Origin: Halolamina rubra
GTDB lineage: Archaea > Halobacteriota > Halobacteria > Halobacteriales > Haloferacaceae
Assembly (NCBI RefSeq): GCF_000739555.1
Contig: NZ_BBJN01000045.1
Coordinates: 1-64,000, forward strand
Length of the DNA stretch: 64,000 bases
Direction of reading: 5' to 3'
Below are positions 47,530 to 61,757 of this stretch, piece by piece. Below the pieces are notes generated by a model. The model was not told the DNA's origin and made no database searches. It worked only from the letters and a program-made list of their open reading frames with translations. Both the position numbers and the translations under genes were made by a program. Numbering within the stretch: the stretch's first letter is position 1; the number at the start of each line of letters is the position of its first letter.

Positions 47530-48609
47530 CTACGCGTCCACCTCGCCGGCCAACTCGACCGCCTCGTCGACGCCGACCGCCTCGTCGCGTTCAGCGAGTC
47601 GATCGAGCAGCTCCTCGACTCGGTCGTCAGTGGGCTCCCGGCCGGCGCGTTCGAGCAGCTTCCGGGCCGCGCCCGCGCCGGTGCTCCCGCCGAACAGGAG
47701 CCGGCGCTCGCCGCCGAACCGGGCCGGCTCGAACGGCTCGAACGTCGACGGCTCCTCGAGCATCGCGGCGGTGTGCAGGCCGGACTCGTGGGAGAACACC
47801 TCGGCGCCGAGCAGCGGTTTCGTCGGCTCGACGTCCTCGCCCAGCGCGTCCAGCACGCGCTCGGCGACGGGGAGCAGCGACGACTCGTCGACCGCGAGAT
47901 CGACTGGCTCCTCGCCGACCGCGGCGGCGGCGACGAGCTCCTCGGTCGGCGTGTTCCCGGCGCGCTCGCCGATGCCGCCGACGGACACGTCGACTTTCCC
48001 GGCGCCCGCGCGGCCCGCCGCCAGCGCGTTCGCCGTGCCGACGCCGAGATCCTCGTGGAAGTGGACGCCGATCTCGTCGAGGTCCGTGTCGAGGTCGGCG
48101 AGGAACTGCTCGACGCCCGCCGGGGTCCGGGAGCCGACCGTGTCCGCGACCGTGTACCAGTCGGCGTCGACCGCCGCGAACAGGTCGTCGAGGTGGGCCG
48201 GATCGGTGCGGAACCCGTCCATCGCGGTGAACTGGACGTCGGCGCCGCCCTCCCTGGCGAGTTCGGCGGCTTCCTGTACCGACTCGACCATCGATTCGCG
48301 GGAGGAACCGAGCACGGCGTCGAGCTGTCTGTCACTCGTCGGCGCGAACAGGTCCACCACGTCGACGCCGGCGTCGAGCGCGGCCTCCACGTCGCCCGGA
48401 ACGGCTCTGGCGAGCCCCGTGATGTCGGCCTCGATGTCGAGGCGGTCGCAGGCCCGGCGAGTCCGCTCGTCGGCGACCGGGAAGCCGATCTGGAGGTAGT
48501 CGACGCCCAGCGCGTCGAGTTCGCGGGCGGCGCCGACTTTCTGGTCGACGCTGTACGCCACGGCGGGGCGCTGCTCGCCCTCCCGGAGCGTGAGGTCGAG
48601 GAGCTTCAT
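47530..48609 (-). CDS. LeuA-like DRE-TIM acyl-CoA condensing enzyme
   Basis: A 359-residue synthase of the 2-isopropylmalate/homocitrate/citramalate family, without the C-terminal LeuA regulatory domain. LLDLTLREGEQRPA (metal Asp, Arg), VHFHEDLGVGTANAL (HxH), VGGIGERAGNTPTEEL and FSHESGLHTAAML are intact. It would condense an acyl-CoA with a 2-oxoacid. The substrate is unknown. The ATG overlaps the stop of the CoA-transferase upstream (ATGA), so the two proteins very likely share a pathway. Confidence 0.82.
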   Translation of the reverse strand: MKLLDLTLREGEQRPAVAYSVDQKVGAARELDALGVDYLQIGFPVADERTRRACDRLDIEADITGLARAVPGDVEAALDAGVDVVDLFAPTSDRQLDAVLGSSRESMVESVQEAAELAREGGADVQFTAMDGFRTDPAHLDDLFAAVDADWYTVADTVGSRTPAGVEQFLADLDTDLDEIGVHFHEDLGVGTANALAAGRAGAGKVDVSVGGIGERAGNTPTEELVAAAAVGEEPVDLAVDESSLLPVAERVLDALGEDVEPTKPLLGAEVFSHESGLHTAAMLEEPSTFEPFEPARFGGERRLLFGGSTGAGAARKLLERAGREPTDDRVEELLDRLAERDEAVGVDEAVELAGEVDA

Positions 48610-49865
48610 ACCGCCCCTGAATCCCTGAGCCGCTCGCGCTCCGCCGCGTCGTACCCCAGCGCCTCCAGCACGGCGTCGGTGTCCTCGCCGAGCTCGGGCG
48701 GATCGGTATTCTCGACGCGGTCGAACCCCGTCGAGCGTGCCGGGTAGCGCGGCACGTCGATGTCGCCACCCTCGCCCTCCGTCGCGCGGATCGAGCCGAA
48801 CGCGTCGGTCTGCCGGAGGTGCGGGTCGTCGACCACGTCCTGCGTGTCGTTGATCGGCGCCACCGGGACGCCAGCGTCGCGCAGGCGAGCGATGAGCTCC
48901 TCGGCGTCGAACTGCTCGCAGGCCGCGCCGACGCGCTCGTCGAGCGCCTCGCGGTTCCCACGCCGGTCCTCGAGCGTGGCGAAGCGCTCCTCCTCGTGGA
49001 GGTCCACGTCGAGCGCCTCGCACATCGCCTCCCACTGCCGCTGGGAAGACGGGCCGACGAACACCCACTCCCCGTCGGCGGACTGGTAGGCGTTGTACGG
49101 CGCCCAGTTGGGGTGGCCGGCGCCGATGGGGTCGGCCGCCCTCCCGTAGGCCTGCGTGTACGCGAGCCAGTAGCCCATCAGCGAGACGGTGCTCCCGTAC
49201 AGCGGGACGGTGACGTGCTGCCCCTCCCCGTTCGCGTCGCGCTGGCGCACGCCGCCGAGGATGGAGATGGCGCCGTACAGCGAGGCGGCCATATCCGCGA
49301 GGCTGGTGCCACAGCGCACCGGCGGCTGGCCGGGGCGGCCCGTGACGCTCATCACGCCCGACAGCGCCTCGGCGACCGGGTCGAGCGCGGGGTACTCCTC
49401 GTAGGGGCCCTCGTTGAACCCCTTGATCGAGCAGTACACCAGCTCCTCGTTGATCTCCTTCAGGTCGTCGTACCCAACGCCGAGGCGGTCGGCGGTGCCG
49501 GACGCGAAGTTCTCGATCAGCACGTCCGCCTCCTCGACGAGCTCGGCGAACACCGCGCTCCCCTCCTCGGACTTCAGGTCGACTGTGACGCCGAGCTTGT
49601 TGCGGTTGACGTAGTTGAACGAGCTGTTGCCGACCGCCGAGGAATCCCGGACGGCGTCGCCGCCGTTCGGGTGCTCGACCTTGATCACCTCGGCACCGAG
49701 ATCGGCCAGCAGCATCGAGCAGAACGGGCCGGCGATGATGTGGCCCAACTCGAGCACCGTCACGTCCGAGAGCGGTCGTCCCTCGGCGCCGGGCAGCAGC
49801 TCCGGCGCGACGCGGTGACCGCCGTCGGCACCCGCCCCGTCGGCCGAACCGTCGTCTCGGGTCAT
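48606..49865 (-). CDS. Class III (CaiB/BaiF) CoA-transferase
   Basis: A 419-residue family III CoA-transferase. LSDVTVLELGHIIAGPFCSMLLADLGAEVIKVE-type start, CSIKGFNEGPYEEYPALDPVAEA, and CGTSLADMAASLYGAI with the catalytic Asp. About 28 hydrophilic residues precede the fold. It moves CoA between two organic acids. It is coupled by ATGA overlaps to a small ORF upstream and a LeuA-like synthase downstream, suggesting an unknown acid-activation pathway. Confidence 0.87.
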   Translation of the reverse strand: MTRDDGSADGAGADGGHRVAPELLPGAEGRPLSDVTVLELGHIIAGPFCSMLLADLGAEVIKVEHPNGGDAVRDSSAVGNSSFNYVNRNKLGVTVDLKSEEGSAVFAELVEEADVLIENFASGTADRLGVGYDDLKEINEELVYCSIKGFNEGPYEEYPALDPVAEALSGVMSVTGRPGQPPVRCGTSLADMAASLYGAISILGGVRQRDANGEGQHVTVPLYGSTVSLMGYWLAYTQAYGRAADPIGAGHPNWAPYNAYQSADGEWVFVGPSSQRQWEAMCEALDVDLHEEERFATLEDRRGNREALDERVGAACEQFDAEELIARLRDAGVPVAPINDTQDVVDDPHLRQTDAFGSIRATEGEGGDIDVPRYPARSTGFDRVENTDPPELGEDTDAVLEALGYDAAERERLRDSGAV

Positions 49866-51292: not shown

Positions 51293-51377
51293 GCCGTCGG
51301 GTTCCGGGTCGATCCGGCGCGTCGGTGCGCTCGCGGATGTGGGAACCACTAAGCCGCTGGGCCGTCGGAGTCGGGGC

Positions 51378-52583
51378 ATGAGCGACGACCCGACCGGCCC
51401 GCTCGACGGCGTCACCGTGCTCGACGCCTCGCGCGTGCTCGCCGGCCCGTTCTGCGGGATGCAGCTCGGCGACCTCGGCGCCGACGTGATCAAGGTGGAA
51501 CGACCCGACGGCGGCGACCAGACCCGCCACTGGACCCCGCCGGCGTTCGGCGACGAGGTGGCCTCCTACTACGCCAGCATCAACCGGAACAAGCGCTCGA
51601 TCACGCTGAACCTCACCACAGAGGCGGGCCGCGAGACGTTCCGCGACCTCGCCGCGGAGGCGGACGTGGTGCTGGAGAACTTCCGGGTGGGGAAAGCCGC
51701 GGAGTGGGACCTCGACTACGAGACGCTCAGCGAGCGGAACCCGGGGCTGGTGTTCTGCTCCATCACTGGGTACGGCCAGTACGGCCCCAAGGCCGAGCGC
51801 CCGGCGTACGACCTGATGATGCAGGCCGAGGGCGGGATGATGAGCATCACCGGCGAGGAGGGACGCCCGCCCGTGCGCGTCGGCGTCGCCGTCGCCGACC
51901 TCGCGGCGGGGATGTACGCCACGCAGTCGATCCTGGCGGCGCTGTTCCGCCGGGAGTTCGCGGACGAGGGCGGTGACCGCGTCGACATCGCGCTGTTCGA
52001 CGCGCTGCTGGGCTGGCTCACGTACATGGCGACCGACGGGTTCGCCTCCGGCGAGGCGCCCGAGCGGATGGGCTCCCGACACCCAAACATCGCGCCGTAC
52101 CAGGCGTTCGAGGCCGCCGACGGCTACGTCGTCGTCGCCTGCGCGAGCCAGGCCATCTGGCACCGGCTCTGCCAGTCGATCGACCGCCCCGATCTCGTCG
52201 ACGACCCGCGCTTCGAGACCAACGAGCGCCGCGTCGACAACCGCGACGAACTGGAGTCGATCCTCACCGACGCGTTCGCCGACGAGACCGTCGACGAGGT
52301 CGTCGACCTGCTCCGGACCAACGACGTGCCGGTCGGCCGCATCCGGGACGTGCTGGAGGCGTTCGACGACCCGCAGGTCGAGGCCCGCGGGATGCGCCAG
52401 CGCGTCAGCCACCCGACCGCGGGCGAGCTCGAGCTCCCGGGGTCGCCGATGCAGTTCGGGGAGTACGCCGCGACCGCGCGGCGCCACCCGCCGCTGCTCG
52501 GCGAGCACACCGAGGCGGTGCTCTCGGAGTTGGGGTACAGCGACGAGGAGATCGAACGGTTGCAGGAAGAGGGCGCGGTCTGA
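51378..52583 (+). CDS. Second class III (CaiB/BaiF) CoA-transferase
   Basis: A 401-residue paralogue of the CoA-transferase at 48606-49865. VLDASRVLAGPFCGMQLGDL is the CoA-binding start, ITGYGQYGPKAERPAYDLMMQAEGG follows, and VGVAVADLAAGMYATQ carries the catalytic Asp. The usual two-domain interlocked dimer is expected. It is single, with TATA-like ccactaagcc (51347-51356). Acid substrate unknown. Confidence 0.88.
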   Translation: MSDDPTGPLDGVTVLDASRVLAGPFCGMQLGDLGADVIKVERPDGGDQTRHWTPPAFGDEVASYYASINRNKRSITLNLTTEAGRETFRDLAAEADVVLENFRVGKAAEWDLDYETLSERNPGLVFCSITGYGQYGPKAERPAYDLMMQAEGGMMSITGEEGRPPVRVGVAVADLAAGMYATQSILAALFRREFADEGGDRVDIALFDALLGWLTYMATDGFASGEAPERMGSRHPNIAPYQAFEAADGYVVVACASQAIWHRLCQSIDRPDLVDDPRFETNERRVDNRDELESILTDAFADETVDEVVDLLRTNDVPVGRIRDVLEAFDDPQVEARGMRQRVSHPTAGELELPGSPMQFGEYAATARRHPPLLGEHTEAVLSELGYSDEEIERLQEEGAV

Positions 52584-52598: not shown

Positions 52599-53153
52599 TC
52601 AGGCGTCGTCCGGCGTGGGGGTCGGTGTCGGTGTCGCCGTCGGTTCGGGAGTCGGCGTTTCGGTGGCAGTGTCGTTCGAACTCGGGGTCGGCGTCACAGT
52701 CGGCGTCGCCGTTCCGTTCCCGTGGGTGGTAGCGGAAATGCCATTAGTACACTGCTCACCGACCTCCGCGGTGACGGAGGCGTCGAGGCCGCCGACGACC
52801 TCGACCGTCACCTGCTCCTCGCCGAACGCGTTGGGGTACATCCTGGTATCACCGGGCTCGATTTCGGCCTTGTTCGGGTTCGGTTCCACTGATTTGCCGT
52901 CACCCGAGATCAACGTGACAGTAAACGGCGCGGAGAACTGGTTGGAGACGGTGACCTTCACCGGGTTCGAGCCGTTATCACTGCCCCTGTCCGTCTCACA
53001 GACGGAGACCCCCACGTACGCGTTCTCGGACTCGACGACGGCGACCGAGACGCCGCGGTCGGCGCTGACGCCGGTGAAGCCGAAGCTCGCGGTGACGAGC
53101 ATCGTCGCCGCCGCAGCTGCGAACAGGACGCTGACCGCGCGTCGGTGGTTCAT
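52599..53153 (-). CDS. Exported beta-rich protein with Thr/Pro-rich tail (TasA-like candidate)
   Basis: A 184-residue protein starting MNHRRAVSVLFAAAAATMLV, with a signal peptide to about residue 30 (FTGVSA-DRG). A beta-rich domain (about 32-140: GVSVAVVESENAYVGV, VTVSNQFSAPFTVTL) follows, then a Thr/Pro-repeat tail suited to glycosylation. The overall shape, and the nearby SipW-like peptidase, resemble DUF1102/TasA-type surface fibre subunits. The ATG overlaps the stop of the membrane regulator gene (ATGA). Assignment to the TasA superfamily is inference. Confidence 0.7.
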   Translation of the reverse strand: MNHRRAVSVLFAAAAATMLVTASFGFTGVSADRGVSVAVVESENAYVGVSVCETDRGSDNGSNPVKVTVSNQFSAPFTVTLISGDGKSVEPNPNKAEIEPGDTRMYPNAFGEEQVTVEVVGGLDASVTAEVGEQCTNGISATTHGNGTATPTVTPTPSSNDTATETPTPEPTATPTPTPTPDDA

Positions 53154-53767
53154 TCTCGCCTGAGTTCGGGCGGTTTGTCGCTCTCGCCGATGCGCTGCCC
53201 CCGGGCGTAGTACGTGTGGGCGACCGCGGAGACGGCGAACATCGCGGTGAGGGCGCTCATCCACGCCACGTCGGGGAACAGGGCGAACGGCCAGGCCTCG
53301 AGGAACACCGCCCCGGTGAGCGTGGCGGCGACGCCCGAGAGCCCGAGGTAGTAGACGCTCCAGGGGATCTCGTTCCCCTGAACGACCTCCATGTACACCT
53401 CGATGTCGTTCAGCGACGCCGTCGGCTCGACCAGCCCCCGGTCCTTGTTGAACTCCACGATGCCCGCCTCGTCCATCATCGGGAGGTGTGACTGCTGGAG
53501 CGCCGTGTACACCCGCTTTCGCTCCTCGTAGGACACCTCGTCGACGGCCACGTCGTACTCCCAGGCGGCTACCTGTTCGGCCACGTCGCCGATCTCTGCT
53601 GCGCCATCCGTCTCCTCCAGTGCGTGGACGGTGTATCGACGACGGCGGTTCGAGAGCACCTCGAACAGCTCGTCGTCGGAGAGGTTCGGGGACTCCGCCC
53701 CGACCGATCCCGAGACCACCTCGCCGGCAACCTCCCCCTGTTGGCGGCTCTGCGTTGAGGATGACAC
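53150..53767 (-). CDS. Membrane-anchored winged-helix regulator (DUF7344-like)
   Basis: About 205 residues from GTG 53767. The N-terminal half (about 30-115) is a haloarchaeal winged helix: LSDDELFEVLSNRRRRYTVHALEE, then VSYEERKRVYTALQQSHLPMMDEAG. Two membrane helices (about 135-155 and 165-185) end the protein. Similar membrane-linked HTH proteins sit beside surface-protein genes and may regulate them. TATA gtgtttatgt (53791-53800, minus) decides the start. Coupled to the exported protein downstream. Confidence 0.75.
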   Translation of the reverse strand: MSSSTQSRQQGEVAGEVVSGSVGAESPNLSDDELFEVLSNRRRRYTVHALEETDGAAEIGDVAEQVAAWEYDVAVDEVSYEERKRVYTALQQSHLPMMDEAGIVEFNKDRGLVEPTASLNDIEVYMEVVQGNEIPWSVYYLGLSGVAATLTGAVFLEAWPFALFPDVAWMSALTAMFAVSAVAHTYYARGQRIGESDKPPELRRE

Positions 53768-54204
53768 AGTGAGAATGTTAGTGTAGTGCCACATAAACAC
53801 TAGGTATAGTTTAGTAGATAGGTAGGGTAGTCATAAATCTGCGAAGTTCGTGAAACAGCATCAGGAGCGGCCTGAACGCTATATTCCCCGGTTCTCGTCT
53901 TGTACTGTAATCTGATACTAACCGCCATTTCCGACGAAACCCACGGACGAGAAGGGGATAGTTGTAGGCTCCGAACCGCTCATACAACGTCAGACGCCTG
54001 TCGTTCACCTGTCTCTGAGGGAACTCGTTTCGAGGTCGCGACACGCGCCTCCTGAACAGCGTGTAGACACCACCGGCCAGGTCAGCGGCGGTACAAGCAC
54101 TCCCTGAACCCAGTTCAGCGGTACCAATACTACGGTACGTGCATGGTAACTGAGAGGTAACACCCCCGCCTGCGGGGCGGGGATCACGAAACAATCGATC
54201 CACA
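53768..54204. other. 437-base intergenic region, lower in G+C; possible mobile-element remnant
   Basis: Divergent region between the surface regulator and the large surface protein. The middle (53830-54160) is lower in G+C than the neighbours and carries a 141-codon minus-strand frame (53811-54236) of basic composition (RRRVSRPRNEFPQRQVNDRR). I could not match it to a known transposase. Near the right end is a 7-bp GC hairpin, ccccgcc/ggcgggg (54164-54182). A TATA-like minus-strand gtgtttatgt lies at the left end. Nothing else supportable is seen. Confidence 0.4.
54164..54182. repeat. GC-rich hairpin upstream of the surface protein gene
   Basis: ccccgcc (54164-54170) pairs with ggcgggg (54176-54182) around a five-base loop, 23 bases before the GTG at 54205. 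It could be an RNA stem in the leader, a terminator of something upstream or the end of an inserted element. Confidence 0.45.
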
Positions 54205-55680
54205 GTGAACCGCCGAACGCTCGCCCTCGCCATCACGCTCGTCCTCGCCGGAACGTTCGCGTTCCCGTCGGCAGCCTCGCCGCTGTTCGCCGGCCCGACC
54301 GACCAGCTCGGCGAAGACGTAGCCCTGGCGCCGAGCAGCGACTACGCCTACCTCGACGCCGACGACGAGCTCGTCGTCGACCTCTCTCCCTCCAACCCCG
54401 ACATCGACGGCGAGGGCGTCAACGCCGACGGCCGGACGACCATCGGCGACGTGTTCCGGGTGCGGTACAACGGCTCCCGGTACGCCCACGTCTGGCTGAC
54501 ACACGGCTCCGACGCCGTGACGTTCGCCGTCGACGGCGAGCCGATCCAGTCCGAGGCGAACAACGTCACGCTCGCGCCCAACGAGTCCGTCGCCGTCTCG
54601 CTCACGGTCGACACGACGGGCCGCGTCGACGGGTTCGTGGACGACATCACGATCCACTCGCGGGTGGCCGAGCCCGCGACGGCCGCCAGCGACACCAACA
54701 AGCTCGCCGCGGACACCGCGACAGAAACCGCGTCGGTCGACGGGTTCGCGACGCGGGTGGTCGCGCCGACCGAGGACTCCCGCCGGTTCACCGCCCTCAG
54801 CGCCGAACCCGGGGCGTCGACCGAGTTCGACGCCGGCCCGCTCGCGCTCCTCAGCGGCGGTAACCTCACCCTGGACCGGCTCGCGGTGACCAGCCCGAAC
54901 CGCTCGTACACGGTGCGGGCCGCGGCCACCGACCCGGGTGAGGCGGGGGCGGCCGTCGTCGACGCCGGCGCCGAGCCGCTGGGCGCGGTGCGGATGACCG
55001 TCGCCGCCGGCAACGTCTCGGCCGCGACGATGTCGTTCAGCGCCGCCCCGTCGTTCGTCGCCGACCGGGGGATCGAGACGGAGCACCTCGCCGTCTACCG
55101 CTACGCCGACGGATCGCTCTCCGAACTCGACGTGACCGCGACCGGCGACCGCGACGGCCGCGTCAGCTTCGACGCCGAGACGCCCGGCTTCTCGACGTTC
55201 GTCGTCGCCCTCGAGCAACCGCGGTTCGCCGTCGACGACGCCGCCCTCTCGACGGAAACGGTGGCCCCCGGCGAGGCGGTCACCGTGACGGCGTCGGTCT
55301 CGAACACCGGCTCGGGCACCGGCAACCGGACCGTGACCGTTCGCGTGGACGGCGAGATCGCCGCGGAGCGGACCGTCGAAGTGGCGCCCGGATCGACGAC
55401 GGAGATGTCCGTCCCGGTCGTGCGCGAGGAACCCGGCGAGTACACCGTCAGCGTCGACGGCGTCGAGACCGGGAGCTTCACCGTCGCCGCGGCGGACGCC
55501 ACGGCCACCGAAACCCCGACCGCTACTGCCACGAGCGCGACAGCGACGACTGACTCGCCGACCGAGCCCCCGGTCGCCGAGCCCGGCGGGTTCGGCCTGG
55601 AGAGCCTGCTGGGGCTGGTCGGGCTGCTGGCCATCCTCGCGGTGGTGCTGGTGCTGGCCCGGCGCACGCCGCGACCGTGA
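54205..55680 (+). CDS. Large exported surface protein, DUF1102/TasA-like with C-terminal anchor
   Basis: A 491-residue protein. Signal peptide (about 1-25, MNRRTLALAITLVLAGTFAF). The N-terminal domain (about 30-160) has LAPSSDYAYLDADDELVVDL, then GVNADGRTTIGDVFRVRYNG and VWLTH, the pattern of DUF1102/TasA-like proteins. A long beta-rich middle includes a CARDB-like domain (about 345-425: TVTASVSNTGSGTGNRTVTV). A Thr-rich stalk and the membrane helix GGFGLESLLGLVGLLAILAVV end the protein, a PGF-CTERM-like anchor. GTG start at 54205. Confidence 0.75.
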   Translation: MNRRTLALAITLVLAGTFAFPSAASPLFAGPTDQLGEDVALAPSSDYAYLDADDELVVDLSPSNPDIDGEGVNADGRTTIGDVFRVRYNGSRYAHVWLTHGSDAVTFAVDGEPIQSEANNVTLAPNESVAVSLTVDTTGRVDGFVDDITIHSRVAEPATAASDTNKLAADTATETASVDGFATRVVAPTEDSRRFTALSAEPGASTEFDAGPLALLSGGNLTLDRLAVTSPNRSYTVRAAATDPGEAGAAVVDAGAEPLGAVRMTVAAGNVSAATMSFSAAPSFVADRGIETEHLAVYRYADGSLSELDVTATGDRDGRVSFDAETPGFSTFVVALEQPRFAVDDAALSTETVAPGEAVTVTASVSNTGSGTGNRTVTVRVDGEIAAERTVEVAPGSTTEMSVPVVREEPGEYTVSVDGVETGSFTVAAADATATETPTATATSATATTDSPTEPPVAEPGGFGLESLLGLVGLLAILAVVLVLARRTPRP

Positions 55681-55727
55681 CCGACCGAGGAGGTAGCCTT
55701 TTGACAGGTTGGGCCGTGCGACCGCAC

Positions 55728-56570
55728 ATGGCTCGACCGGGCGAGCGGTCGTTGACCGTGGCACTGCGGGAGGCCGTCCGACTCCGGGACTGTCTGGCGC
55801 TCTCGCTGGTTCCCGCGGTCGCCCTCGCCGCGTTCGCGCTTCCCGTCGCGCGCCGGGAGGCGCTGGCGTTCGTCTACCGCGAGCCGTCGCTGCTCACCGC
55901 CTACACCGCCCACGTCGTCCACTTCGACGCGGCCCACCTCGCGGCGAACCTGCTCGGCTACGTGCTGGTGACCGGGTTCGCGTACGTGCTCGCCGGGCTC
56001 GCGGGCTATCGGCGGCTGTTCTGGGTCACCACGGCGACGTACCTGGTCGCGTTCCCACCGGTGCTGTCGGGGCTGAACCTCGCGGTGCCGCGGGACGCCG
56101 TCGGCTTCGGGCTCTCGGGGCTCAACATGGCGTTCTCGGGACTGCTCGCGCTGGTGCTGGTGGCCTACGGCGCGCGGCTCGACGACCGGATCCGGCTCCG
56201 GGACGCGCCGGCGCTGTTCTTCGGGGCGATCGTGACGATCTCGATCGTCGCGCTCCCGAGCGGAACCGCCCGCGGCGTCGGCGTCGCGAGCGCCGTGCTC
56301 GCCGCCGTCTACGTGGTCGCGGCGCGACGCTCCAGACGGGGCGACCCGCCGGTCAACCTCCGGGCGGGCTGGCTCGACGCGGGCGTCCTCGGCGCGGTCG
56401 CGCTGCTGGGCTACCAGTACGTCGGGTTCAGCACGGTGACGGCCGACGGCGGAATCGTGAACGTCTACGTCCACCTGCTTGGGTTCTGCCTGGGGTTCAT
56501 CGTCCCCTACAGCGCGATCGTCGCCGGCGTCGTCGACGGCGGCGCCGACGGAGGCTTTTTGTCAGACTAA
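55728..56570 (+). CDS. Rhomboid-family intramembrane protease-like protein
   Basis: A 280-residue protein with seven or so membrane helices. The rhomboid fingerprint is visible: HFDAAHLAAN (H65, H70, N74), the nucleophile motif GLSG (S130) and HLLGFCLGF (H249), forming a Ser-His dyad. Rhomboids cut membrane helices, releasing or maturing surface proteins. It sits between a surface protein with a C-terminal anchor and a signal peptidase, so it could process these substrates. TATA-like gccttttgac at 55696-55705. Confidence 0.75.
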   Translation: MARPGERSLTVALREAVRLRDCLALSLVPAVALAAFALPVARREALAFVYREPSLLTAYTAHVVHFDAAHLAANLLGYVLVTGFAYVLAGLAGYRRLFWVTTATYLVAFPPVLSGLNLAVPRDAVGFGLSGLNMAFSGLLALVLVAYGARLDDRIRLRDAPALFFGAIVTISIVALPSGTARGVGVASAVLAAVYVVAARRSRRGDPPVNLRAGWLDAGVLGAVALLGYQYVGFSTVTADGGIVNVYVHLLGFCLGFIVPYSAIVAGVVDGGADGGFLSD

Positions 56571-56591
56571 CACAACCCTTGGGCTGACTGG

Positions 56592-57755
56592 ATGACTCCC
56601 CGCCGACTCCTGACGCTGGGCGCCGAGGCGGCGCTCGTGCTCGTCGTCGCGTCGCTGCTGCTCGGCCAGGTGCTCGGCACGCCCGTGCTGCTGGGGTACG
56701 TCGAGACGGGGAGCATGGAGCCGACGCTCGAGCCGGGCGACGGGTTCGTCGCCGTCCCAGCCGCCGTCGCCGGCGACGTGGAGGAGGGCGACGTGATCGT
56801 GTTCCGGGCCGAGGAGCTCCAGGGCGGGGGGCTCACGACCCACCGCGTCGTCGGCGAGACCGAACGGGGGTACGTGACGCGCGGCGACGCCAACCCGTTC
56901 ACCGATCAGGACGGCGACGAGCCCCCGGTGAAGGAGGGACAGATCGTCGCCGAGGCGCTGCAGATCGGGGGCAGCGTCGTAGTGATCCCCAACCTCGGCA
57001 CGCTGGTGACCGGGCTGCAGGGCGCGTTCACCGCGGTGCAGCAGCGACTCGCCGTCATGACTGGCTCCCGGGCGCTGCTGGGCACACAGGGGCTCGCGTA
57101 CCTCCTGCTCGGGCTGTCGGCGCTGCTGTACCTCTACGACGTGGTCGCCGGCGACGGCGAGGAGCGCGACCGCGACCGTGACCGCAGCCGCGATCAGGGG
57201 TTCTCGCCCGGCCTCGTCGTCCTCGTCCTCGCGGGGGTGCTCGTCGCGTCGGCGACGGCGGCGATGGTGGTGCCGGCGGGCACCCAGCAGTTCGGGGTCG
57301 TGAGCGCGGAGTTCGCCTCGGAGAACCCGACCGTGATCGAGCAGGGCGGGTCGACGACGCTCCCCTACACGGTGCCGAACGCGGGGGTGGTGCCCGTCGT
57401 GGCGTACGTCGAACCCGGCAGCGACGGCGTCGCGATCGAGCCCCAGCGCGTCCGCGTCGGCGGCCGGAGCGAGGCGACGGTGGAGATGACGCTGTCGGCG
57501 CCGCCGGAGACCGGCTACTACCGGCGGTTCGTCACCGAACACCGCTACCTCGCGCTGCTCCCGGTGCCGGTGATCGACGCGCTGTACGAGGTCCACCCGT
57601 GGCTGCCGATCCTGGCCATCGACGTCGCGCTCGCCGGCGCCGTCGCGCTGCTGGGGCTGGTCGTGCTCGGCGGCCGCCGCGTCAGGGTTCGGCGCCGGAG
57701 TTCGCGCCACAACCGCTCGACGTGGCGGCGGCTGCTCCGCTATCTGACACGCTGA
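56592..57755 (+). CDS. Signal peptidase I (SipW-like) with large C-terminal extension
   Basis: A 387-residue membrane peptidase of archaeal type. VETGSMEPTLEPGD holds the nucleophile S41; LTTHRVVGE holds H84; VTRGDANP includes D98 (Ser-His type). The usual enzyme ends near residue 190. Here a membrane helix, an extracellular beta domain (about 225-325, SEFASENPTVIEQGG-like region) and another C-terminal membrane helix are added. It removes signal peptides from exported proteins. Its position inside a surface-protein cluster suggests dedicated substrates, as SipW has for TasA. Confidence 0.85.
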   Translation: MTPRRLLTLGAEAALVLVVASLLLGQVLGTPVLLGYVETGSMEPTLEPGDGFVAVPAAVAGDVEEGDVIVFRAEELQGGGLTTHRVVGETERGYVTRGDANPFTDQDGDEPPVKEGQIVAEALQIGGSVVVIPNLGTLVTGLQGAFTAVQQRLAVMTGSRALLGTQGLAYLLLGLSALLYLYDVVAGDGEERDRDRDRSRDQGFSPGLVVLVLAGVLVASATAAMVVPAGTQQFGVVSAEFASENPTVIEQGGSTTLPYTVPNAGVVPVVAYVEPGSDGVAIEPQRVRVGGRSEATVEMTLSAPPETGYYRRFVTEHRYLALLPVPVIDALYEVHPWLPILAIDVALAGAVALLGLVVLGGRRVRVRRRSSRHNRSTWRRLLRYLTR

Positions 57756-57778
57756 GTTCTCCTGTCGGCTGACCAATA

Positions 57779-57790
57779 GTCCTATGTAAC
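57779..57790 (+). promoter_or_regulatory. Promoter of the DUF5305 gene
   Basis: The sequence gtcctatgtaac lies about 27 bases before the ATG at 57811. It gives this gene its own start although it follows the signal peptidase closely. Confidence 0.45.
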
Positions 57791-57810
57791 GTCATCCCAC
57801 AGTCACGTCC

Positions 57811-59091
57811 ATGACTCAGGGGAGGTCCAGACTCAGGGGCCGGGCGATCGTGGGCTCGTGGTTCGCCGTGCTGGCGGCGGTGCTGGTCGCCCTCGCGTTC
57901 GTCGGGGGTGCCGCGGCGTACACCGCCCACGTGGATCCGGGCAGCACGACCGAGCAGGTCGAGCGGACCCACTGGACGGCCGACGGCACGTACCACCACG
58001 CCGCCGAGGTGACCCGCGAGAACCCCGTGTTCCCGGTCGGCTCGACGCTCTCGAACCGGTCGACGTACTACACGGGCGTGTCGCCGGAGCTCGACGGCGA
58101 GTACGCACTGACGTACACCGGCCGGGACGCCGCGCCGGCGACGGTCGACCTGGCCGCGTCGCTGGTGATCCAGTCGAGCAGCGACGGGACGGTGTACTGG
58201 ACGGATCGAACGGCGCTCGACTCGACCAGTGTCGACTCGCTCGCGCCGGGGGAGTCGACGCGCCTGGGGTTCACGCTGAACGCGACCGAGGTCGCCGAGC
58301 GCCGCTCCGCGATCCAGTCGGCGCTGGGCGACACGCAGGGTGAGATCGCCACGTTCGTCGCGGTCGACGTGACCGTGGCGGGCGCCGTCGACGGGGGGTC
58401 GGCGGATCTCTCGTTCACCCACCGGCTCCCGGTGAGCGTCGACGGCGGGTCGTACACGGTCGGCCCGGAGACGGCCGGGAGCGAACCGATGACGACGACG
58501 CAGGCCGTCAGTACGCCACGCGAGTACGGGCCGTTATGGTCGCTCGGCGGCCCGCTGCTGTTCCTCGTCGGCGCGGCCGGGCTGGCGGGGCTGGCTCTCG
58601 GCCGCCGGCGGGACGCGTTCAGCCTCTCCGCGGCCGAGCGCGACCTGCTCGCGTACCGCGACGACCGCGCGGAGTTCGACGAGTGGATCGTGCGGGCCCG
58701 CCTCTCGCCGACGTTCGAGGACCGGACGCGGGCGGAGGCCGAGTCGCTCGCGGACGTGGTCGACTTCGCCATCGACGCCGGAACCGGCGTCGTCGAGGAT
58801 CCGGGCTCGGGTCGGTTCTACGCCGTCACCGAGGAGCTGGCCGTCGTGTACGACCCGCCGAAGCTGGCGCGCGAACCGACCGGCGACGACGCCGACGACG
58901 ACGGGGTGCTCGCGGACGTGGCAGGCGTCTCCGTCCCGGCGGACGAGAACGGCTCCTCGGACGAGGCCGGTTCGGAGGCCGTCGACGCCGCCGAGGAGGG
59001 CGGTTCTGGAGGGAGCGACAGCGAGGACGCAGACGCCGGGGCTACCGTGGAGGCCGTCGACGAGTCGGCCGACGACCCGTCCGGGGAGTGA
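57811..59091 (+). CDS. DUF5305-type membrane protein
   Basis: A 426-residue protein. N-terminal membrane helix (about 14-36), a large outside beta domain (about 38-230, HWTADGTYHHAAEVTRENPV and YYTGVSPELDGEYALTYTGR), a second helix (about 247-267), then a cytoplasmic acidic domain (DVVDFAIDAGTGVVEDPGSG). The order matches DUF5305 proteins, which in haloarchaea go with SipW-like peptidases and DUF1102 proteins. Probably a scaffold or assembly factor of the surface structure. Confidence 0.8.
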   Translation: MTQGRSRLRGRAIVGSWFAVLAAVLVALAFVGGAAAYTAHVDPGSTTEQVERTHWTADGTYHHAAEVTRENPVFPVGSTLSNRSTYYTGVSPELDGEYALTYTGRDAAPATVDLAASLVIQSSSDGTVYWTDRTALDSTSVDSLAPGESTRLGFTLNATEVAERRSAIQSALGDTQGEIATFVAVDVTVAGAVDGGSADLSFTHRLPVSVDGGSYTVGPETAGSEPMTTTQAVSTPREYGPLWSLGGPLLFLVGAAGLAGLALGRRRDAFSLSAAERDLLAYRDDRAEFDEWIVRARLSPTFEDRTRAEAESLADVVDFAIDAGTGVVEDPGSGRFYAVTEELAVVYDPPKLAREPTGDDADDDGVLADVAGVSVPADENGSSDEAGSEAVDAAEEGGSGGSDSEDADAGATVEAVDESADDPSGE

Positions 59092-60773: not shown

Positions 60774-61757
60774 ATGAGCGACAAAGTACAAGCGTACACC
60801 AGTGAGCGTGCCGAGGCCGCACAGAGCGAGGAAGAGACCGAGGAGGAGTCCGTCGACGAGCTCCAGTGTCCGGAGTGCGGCGGCAGTCTCGCGACCGACA
60901 CCGAACACGGCGAGACGGTCTGTCAGGACTGCGGTCTCGTGGTCGACGAGGACAGCATCGACCACGGCCCCGAGTGGCGCGCGTTCGACTCCCGCGAGAA
61001 AGACGAGAAGTCTCGCGTCGGCGCCCCGACGACGAACATGATGCACGACAAGGGGCTGTCGACCAACATCGGCTGGCAGGACAAGGACGCCTACGGCAAC
61101 CAGCTCTCGGCCAGCCAGCGACAGAAGATGCAGCGGCTCCGGACGTGGAACGAGCGGTTCCGGACCCGTGACTCGAAGGAGCGCAACCTGAAGCAGGCAC
61201 TCGGCGAGATCGACCGCATGGCCTCGGCGCTCGGCCTCCCGGAGAACGTCCGCGAGACCGCCTCCGTCATCTACCGGCGCGCCCTCTCCGAGGATCTCCT
61301 CCCGGGACGCTCGATCGAGGGCGTTTCGACGGCCAGCCTCTACGCCGCCGCCCGGAAGGCCGGCACCCCGCGCAGCCTCGACGAGATCTCCGCCGTCTCC
61401 CGCGTCGAGAAGGACGAGATCGCCCGCACCTACCGCTACGTGGTCCGCGAGCTCAAGCTGGAGATCCAGCCCGCCGACCCCGAGCAGTACGTCCCGCGCT
61501 TCGCCAGCGACCTCGGGCTCTCCGACGAGGCCGAGCGCCGCGCGCGACAGCTGCTCCAGACCGCGAAGGAGCAGGAGGTCCACTCGGGCAAGTCGCCGGT
61601 CGGCCTCGCGGCCGCCGCCGTCTACGCCGCGTCGCTGCTGACCAACGAGAAGGTGACCCAGAGCGAGGTCAGCGAGGTCGCCAACATCAGCGAGGTCACC
61701 ATCCGCAACCGCTACCACGAGCTGCTCGAGGCCGAGGAGAGCATCCACATGCCCTGA
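60774..61757 (+). CDS. tfb: Transcription initiation factor TFB
   Basis: A 327-residue archaeal TFIIB. N-terminal zinc ribbon (C32, C35, C50, C53: LQCPECGG ... TVCQDCGLVVDE), B-finger/linker (EWRAFDSREKDEKSRVGAP), and two cyclin folds (about 130-225 and 230-327; LPGRSIEGVSTASLYAAARKAG, TIRNRYHELLEAEE). It recruits RNA polymerase to TBP-bound promoters. Haloarchaea carry several TFBs; which paralogue this is cannot be told. Confidence 0.95.
   Translation: MSDKVQAYTSERAEAAQSEEETEEESVDELQCPECGGSLATDTEHGETVCQDCGLVVDEDSIDHGPEWRAFDSREKDEKSRVGAPTTNMMHDKGLSTNIGWQDKDAYGNQLSASQRQKMQRLRTWNERFRTRDSKERNLKQALGEIDRMASALGLPENVRETASVIYRRALSEDLLPGRSIEGVSTASLYAAARKAGTPRSLDEISAVSRVEKDEIARTYRYVVRELKLEIQPADPEQYVPRFASDLGLSDEAERRARQLLQTAKEQEVHSGKSPVGLAAAAVYAASLLTNEKVTQSEVSEVANISEVTIRNRYHELLEAEESIHMP

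Follow-up and report, generated by a model that had tools for sequence, protein, structure and literature searches.

A divergent gene cluster in Halolamina rubra

We analyzed a 64,000-nucleotide stretch of the 2.95-Mb haloarchaeal genome of Halolamina rubra (hereafter the window), which contains a divergent locus at positions 52599 to 59091 with two genes (B and A) on the minus strand and four (C, D, E, and F) on the plus strand (Table 1). The stop codon of B overlaps the start of A, C and D share 4 bases, and between the two divergent groups lies a spacer of ∼440 bases, an arrangement that fits two coupled, divergently transcribed units. An initial annotation had listed a regulator with two helices, exported proteins, a rhomboid, a fused signal peptidase, and a DUF5305 protein, and all of these parts are present at or near where it had placed them. 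The spacer, of lower G+C content, includes an inverted GC-rich repeat (near 54164-54181). Flanking the region are CoA-transferase family III genes (48606-49865, by resemblance only, and 51339-52583, confirmed by Pfam), and a transcription factor B gene lies downstream (60774-61757), its protein being 99 to 100% identical to counterparts in four related species. A PHROGs search returned nothing useful.

Table 1. Features of the locus, with positions in the window
Feature	Position	Strand	Size and basis
A: small exported protein, TafC-like	52599-53153	-	184 aa; TafC E 7.3e-7, below cut-off
B: DUF7344 regulator	53150 to about 53767	-	PF24035 E 1.7e-30; start codon uncertain
Divergent intergenic spacer between B and C	53768-54204		Sequence; gene maps of sister loci
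C: DUF1102/TafF-like N-terminal domain, PGF-pre-PGF, CARDB, and tripartite tail	54205-55680	+	491 aa; Pfam, NCBIfam
C tail: EPGGFGL motif, hydrophobic helix, ARRTPRP	55543-55680	+	Alignment of 35 tails; association with D
D: putative rhomboid-family intramembrane serine protease, weakly rhombosortase-like	55677-56570	+	Invariant residues; TIGR03902 E 8.1e-5, below cut-off
E: archaeal, SipW-like signal peptidase with membrane-anchored extracellular beta-rich domain	56592-57755	+	TIGR02228 above cut-off
F: DUF5305 membrane protein with extracellular domain	57811-59091	+	PF17231 E 2.7e-47

Protein A carries an RR leader, a donor-type V-x-V-x-V segment, a small beta-sandwich, and a Thr/Pro-rich tail. 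Its AF2 model has seven strands (pLDDT 75) and leaves the presumed donor segment (28-42) disordered when A is modeled alone, which would be compatible with strand donation but is not proof of it. Protein C (pLDDT of its AF2 model, 87) combines DUF1102 (E value, 9e-6), PGF-pre-PGF (9.6e-9), and CARDB (4.5e-7) domains with a C-terminal helix and RR. The regulator B has two C-terminal hydrophobic helices after its DUF7344 domain; the genome holds seven DUF7344 genes including B, three of which adjoin fimbrial or TasA-like genes. E scores 59.3 bits against TIGR02228 (archaeal signal peptidase I), above the cut-off, and matches the SipW model weakly (E value, 4.4e-8); S41, H84, D99, and D105 are invariant in its family, and SEC11A/C are its nearest solved relatives.

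Conservation of the locus and homologies of its subunits

A scan of named genomes with the E alignment confirmed 391 places; we retained the best 80, of which 60 had good flanks. Among these 60 well-flanked E loci (from the best 80 of 391 places), A-type genes are present in 59, F in 58, B in 55, C in 40, and D in 32. Since the A family has a density of only ∼6 to 10 genes per ∼3-Mb genome, or roughly 0.05 per 19 kb, its clustering with E is not a product of chance. The same genes are found in the same order and orientation in different haloarchaeal genera, the commonest neighboring pairs in E loci being E+F+, A-B-, B-A+, A+A+, C+D+, and D+E+. Relatives of F (DUF5305) were found in 23 of 40 related genomes, and mapping the other window genes onto 20 of their neighborhoods recovered the cluster. 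The initial annotation had named a lack of conservation outside this genome as one of two results that would overturn it; the cluster is widespread in haloarchaea, and that outcome is excluded. The fused peptidase, put forward there as a new component together with the rhomboid, turns out to be, like DUF5305, a standard component of these loci, while D is present in only some loci and is strongly linked to C. The sister locus L033 (genome G002) has several apparent frameshifts from C to F, with D and E each split into two frames; these are probably sequencing errors in an incomplete assembly.

In sister loci, B usually adjoins a single A-type gene (A1), and the stretch from B to C often carries a further one to four (A2), a group that the window locus lacks. 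NCBIfam models relate these proteins to the recently named haloarchaeal Taf fimbriae: TafC matches 43 of 45 A1 homologues, TafE matches 54 of 54 A2 proteins (a group that NCBIfam calls TafE/TafA), and TafF matches 21 of 50 C homologues. The window's own A stays below the TafC cut-off (28.6 bits versus 410), its C has no TafF match in NCBIfam, and no TafA scored above its cut-off in 20 genomes, including the host genome. In loci scoring above the Taf cut-offs, the partners are those of the window locus: a DUF7344 gene, a fused signal peptidase, and DUF5305. Gene order in these loci is tafA, DUF7344 gene, tafC, signal peptidase, tafE, and tafF, with DUF5305 alongside, from which the regulator would correspond to TafB and the peptidase to TafD.

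The A2 proteins, which are the proposed rod subunits, begin with the leader RRKF...GTGAF(T/S)SVxAxR and continue with V-x-V-x-V; R3, R4, and R33 are invariant, and valine stands at every second position in the segment after the leader. The rod-subunit profile matches PDB entry 9p0a ("Pilin") with an E value of 9.6e-32, and the match of the A1 profile to the same pilin is limited to positions 1 to 57. A similar partition appears when all subunits are aligned to the rod profile: of 145 A2 proteins, 134 start no later than position 5 and 131 extend at least to position 140; 44 of 57 A1 proteins end by position 80, covering the leader and the following strand; and 48 of 60 C proteins start at positions 40 to 110, with the C protein of the window aligning from position 55 onward only. 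The leader motif was found in 0 of 66 C proteins; for 12 of 60 C proteins, the alignment to the rod profile begins near the profile start, which runs counter to this partition. In TasA fibers, a subunit is completed by the N-terminal strand of its neighbor, and TapA, which donates a strand and cannot accept one, starts the filament (PMC10151520). Applied to the profile coverage, this logic suggests that A1 would start the fiber as a pure strand donor, that A2 would build the rod, and that C, able only to accept a strand, would anchor it.

Rod-type genes are found elsewhere in the same genome. Three of them form an array on another contig (C70:27459-29120; E values of about 1e-37 to 1e-41 with the A6 profile, the rod profile that matches 9p0a), and the same neighborhood in four other Halolamina genomes also holds rod arrays (five genomes in total; L168 and L180-L183). 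These arrays come without peptidase or regulator and are conserved in position, with very variable sequence and gene number. On contig C43 (L169:7318-9777), a DUF7344 gene is divergent from two more A2-type genes, without peptidase, rhomboid, or DUF5305. E is the sole signal peptidase with an added domain found in the genome, the other match being a short protein on contig C52. With rods on other contigs and a single fused peptidase, the window appears to hold the biogenesis and end-subunit part of a split system, and it probably serves subunits encoded elsewhere. Rod-subunit genes occupy the position of the B-C spacer in many sister loci, so the spacer in the window may mark rod-gene loss.

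The rhomboid and the tail of protein C

Pfam Rhomboid matches 5 of 9 members of the D family (best E value, 4e-4) and does not match D of the window. The rhombosortase model TIGR03902 is the best family for all nine members, albeit with weak matches below the cut-off (best E value, 6.2e-6); D of the window scores 22.6 bits versus a cut-off of 84, which places it outside that clade. The rhomboid residues H82, H87, S147, and H266 are invariant, and the three rhomboid motifs occur in 49, 52, and 50 of 52 D proteins. A search of solved structures with D gave no clear rhomboid entry, so the assignment rests on motifs and family models.

Most C proteins that adjoin D terminate with the motif E-[P/L]-x-G-[F/I]-x-L, followed by a helix and then basic residues. 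This pattern, picked after viewing the tails, is present in 42 of 47 C proteins beside D, in 3 of the 12 that lie apart from it (Fisher P = 2.6e-5, a value that overstates the evidence because the sequences are related), and in 0 of 124 other hydrophobic tails. The three tail-bearing C proteins not beside D come from genomes that have D elsewhere, and the motif is absent from the tails of L046, L050, L068, L077, L081, and L122, which belong to D-less genomes. A tail profile retrieved exactly one protein, C, in each of five Halolamina genomes with D and no protein in the D-less genomes G001, G003, G009, G015, G102, and G027; there was a second, weaker match in two Halorubrum-group genomes, and matches in four other genomes (E values of 0.004 to 0.01) are at chance level. 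The C tail was also considered as a PGF-CTERM signal, a candidate that was rejected when an NCBIfam scan gave no PGF-CTERM model at E values up to 1.

A general rhomboid protease, encoded here by chance and not acting on C, would fit with the absence of D from many genomes that have E and F and with the broad surface phenotypes of Haloferax rhomboids (PMC11985538). It would also fit the Haloarcula-type taf loci (L209, L210, L211, and L213), where D lies beside F with no C-type-tail protein nearby. We nevertheless regard this as unlikely, since D occurs without C in 0 of the 60 well-flanked E loci (from the best 80 of 391 places) and is mostly the next gene after C on the same strand, C and D occur as a pair apart from E in L097, L105, and L115, and the tail motif tracks D across genomes. 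TafF tails provide an independent test of the association between D and the tail; they are without the motif whether D is present or not, which limits the rule to C-type anchors, and the Haloarcula-type loci indicate that D may have another or broader role.

D looks dedicated to the proposed anchor C, resembling a rhombosortase pair; in the original rhombosortase study, adjacency was observed in genomes with only one target (PMC3237569). We tentatively suggest a rhombosortase-like system in archaea, with a single rhomboid and a single target in each genome, where D would cut the E-P-x-G-F/I tail of the fimbria anchor and thereby release or re-anchor the fiber by a route separate from archaeosortase, a serious possibility that stops somewhat short of being probable.

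A probable split Taf-type fimbria and its relation to known systems

The initial annotation had compared the cluster to TasA and bundling-pilus loci. Its idea of a fiber-making surface cluster with a SipW-type peptidase agrees with what we found and extends to other haloarchaea; the assignment to TasA/AbpA is not supported. PF12389 (TasA/camelysin) matches in this genome on contigs C52 and C65 only and not in the window cluster. Those contigs (C52:1-3323, L170; C65:1-3781, L184) hold a separate TasA/camelysin system, broken across contig ends, which comprises a short signal peptidase, a DUF7344 gene, and several proteins whose leaders are of the TMAFLND type; the presence of true PF12389 proteins there marks the window locus as a different system. 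In the structural comparison of A and C with TasA and AbpA, which had been proposed as a check, the PDB matches listed for the AF2 models of A and C included neither TasA nor AbpA and no known pilus subunit of this type. A TasA/AbpA-type bundling-pilus locus proper is quite improbable, even though a SipW-like peptidase adjoins exported beta-rich proteins and a distant kinship of all such donor-strand fibers is probable, because the profile searches also retrieve 9p0a rather than TasA or AbpA. On these homologies, we identify the window locus as a fimbria-biogenesis locus whose nearest relative is the haloarchaeal Taf family rather than TasA/AbpA. A cluster that makes a non-fibrous surface layer or adhesin and no filament is the least probable reading: the window has no complete rod subunit, and Ig-like and CARDB domains are common among non-fiber surface proteins, but rod subunits homologous to a solved pilin lie inside most sister loci and in trans in Halolamina.

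We consider it probable that the locus encodes half of a haloarchaeal Taf-type fimbria (TasA-like, joined by donor strands), namely, its biogenesis factors and end subunits, with A as the starter, A2 as the rod in trans, C as the anchor, and D sorting its tail. From the observed gene content, conservation, homologies, profile coverage, and association of D with the tail, we infer every enzymatic and assembly step as follows. Subunits with RR leaders would probably be exported by Tat, and E would cut the leader just upstream of V-x-V-x-V; the freed strand would then fill the beta-sandwich of a neighboring subunit, as the homology to 9p0a and the known TasA mechanism suggest. Protein A, with a donor segment and without the rod body, probably starts or caps the fiber; the TafE-like A2 rods, with both donor segment and body, would be supplied in trans, in Halolamina from the array on another contig; and C, with a body, a membrane anchor, and no donor segment, probably holds the fiber at the cell. 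The adjoining D most likely cleaves the tripartite tail of C as a dedicated sorting enzyme, so that the fiber would be released or re-anchored, F probably assists assembly, and B would control expression. Counting against this model, the window proteins fall below the Taf cut-offs, C is without a TafF match, and the matches listed for the two AF2 models include no known pilus subunit of this type; the 12 C proteins that align from near the profile start and the D genes of the Haloarcula-type loci also fit it poorly.

The Taf-type kind of fimbria is already known, and the new element is the rhomboid D, with its apparent pairing with C. With a proposed role for each gene, haloarchaeal surface fibers of a widespread class become readable from sequence. 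If the pairing is true, a haloarchaeal rhomboid would gain a defined natural target, and archaea would have an extra C-terminal sorting route separate from archaeosortase.

The proposed sorting step can be compared with three systems. In bacterial rhombosortase/GlyGly-CTERM pairs, a rhomboid lies beside a target with a motif, helix, and basic tail, as with D and C, whereas D is under the family cut-off, the motif of C is E-P-x-G-F/I rather than GlyGly, and the host is archaeal. The archaeosortase A/PGF-CTERM system uses a haloarchaeal C-terminal sorting signal with the same three-part build as the C tail; however, the C tail is unmatched by that family, and its partner is a rhomboid. Rho1 (HVO_1474) and Rho2 (HVO_0727) of Haloferax volcanii, likened to D by description, are haloarchaeal rhomboids that affect adhesion and the cell surface; in contrast to the proposed D-C pair, they have no known natural substrate, and the 2025 study of these enzymes names natural substrates as an aim for future work (PMC11985538).

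As for the fiber, TasA/TapA/SipW of Bacillus subtilis and the AbpA bundling pili of Pyrobaculum likewise place a special signal peptidase beside exported beta-sandwich subunits, and TasA/TapA share the N-terminal strand donation and donor-only starter that we propose for the window system (PMC9674648, PMC10151520); they differ in that no sequence or fold match to them was found and that true TasA-family proteins lie elsewhere in the genome. Relative to the Taf fimbriae (NCBIfam TafA NF052520, TafC NF052521, TafE NF052522, and TafF NF052523), the window proteins stay below the curated cut-offs, C ends in a tripartite tail whereas TafF ends in two C-terminal helices, the rod subunits of the window system are in trans, and a rhomboid adjoins C. 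The Taf fimbriae and 9p0a share with the window system homologous subunits whose leader and donor-type segment are the same, and the Taf loci have the same DUF7344, fused signal peptidase, and DUF5305 partners as the locus in the window.
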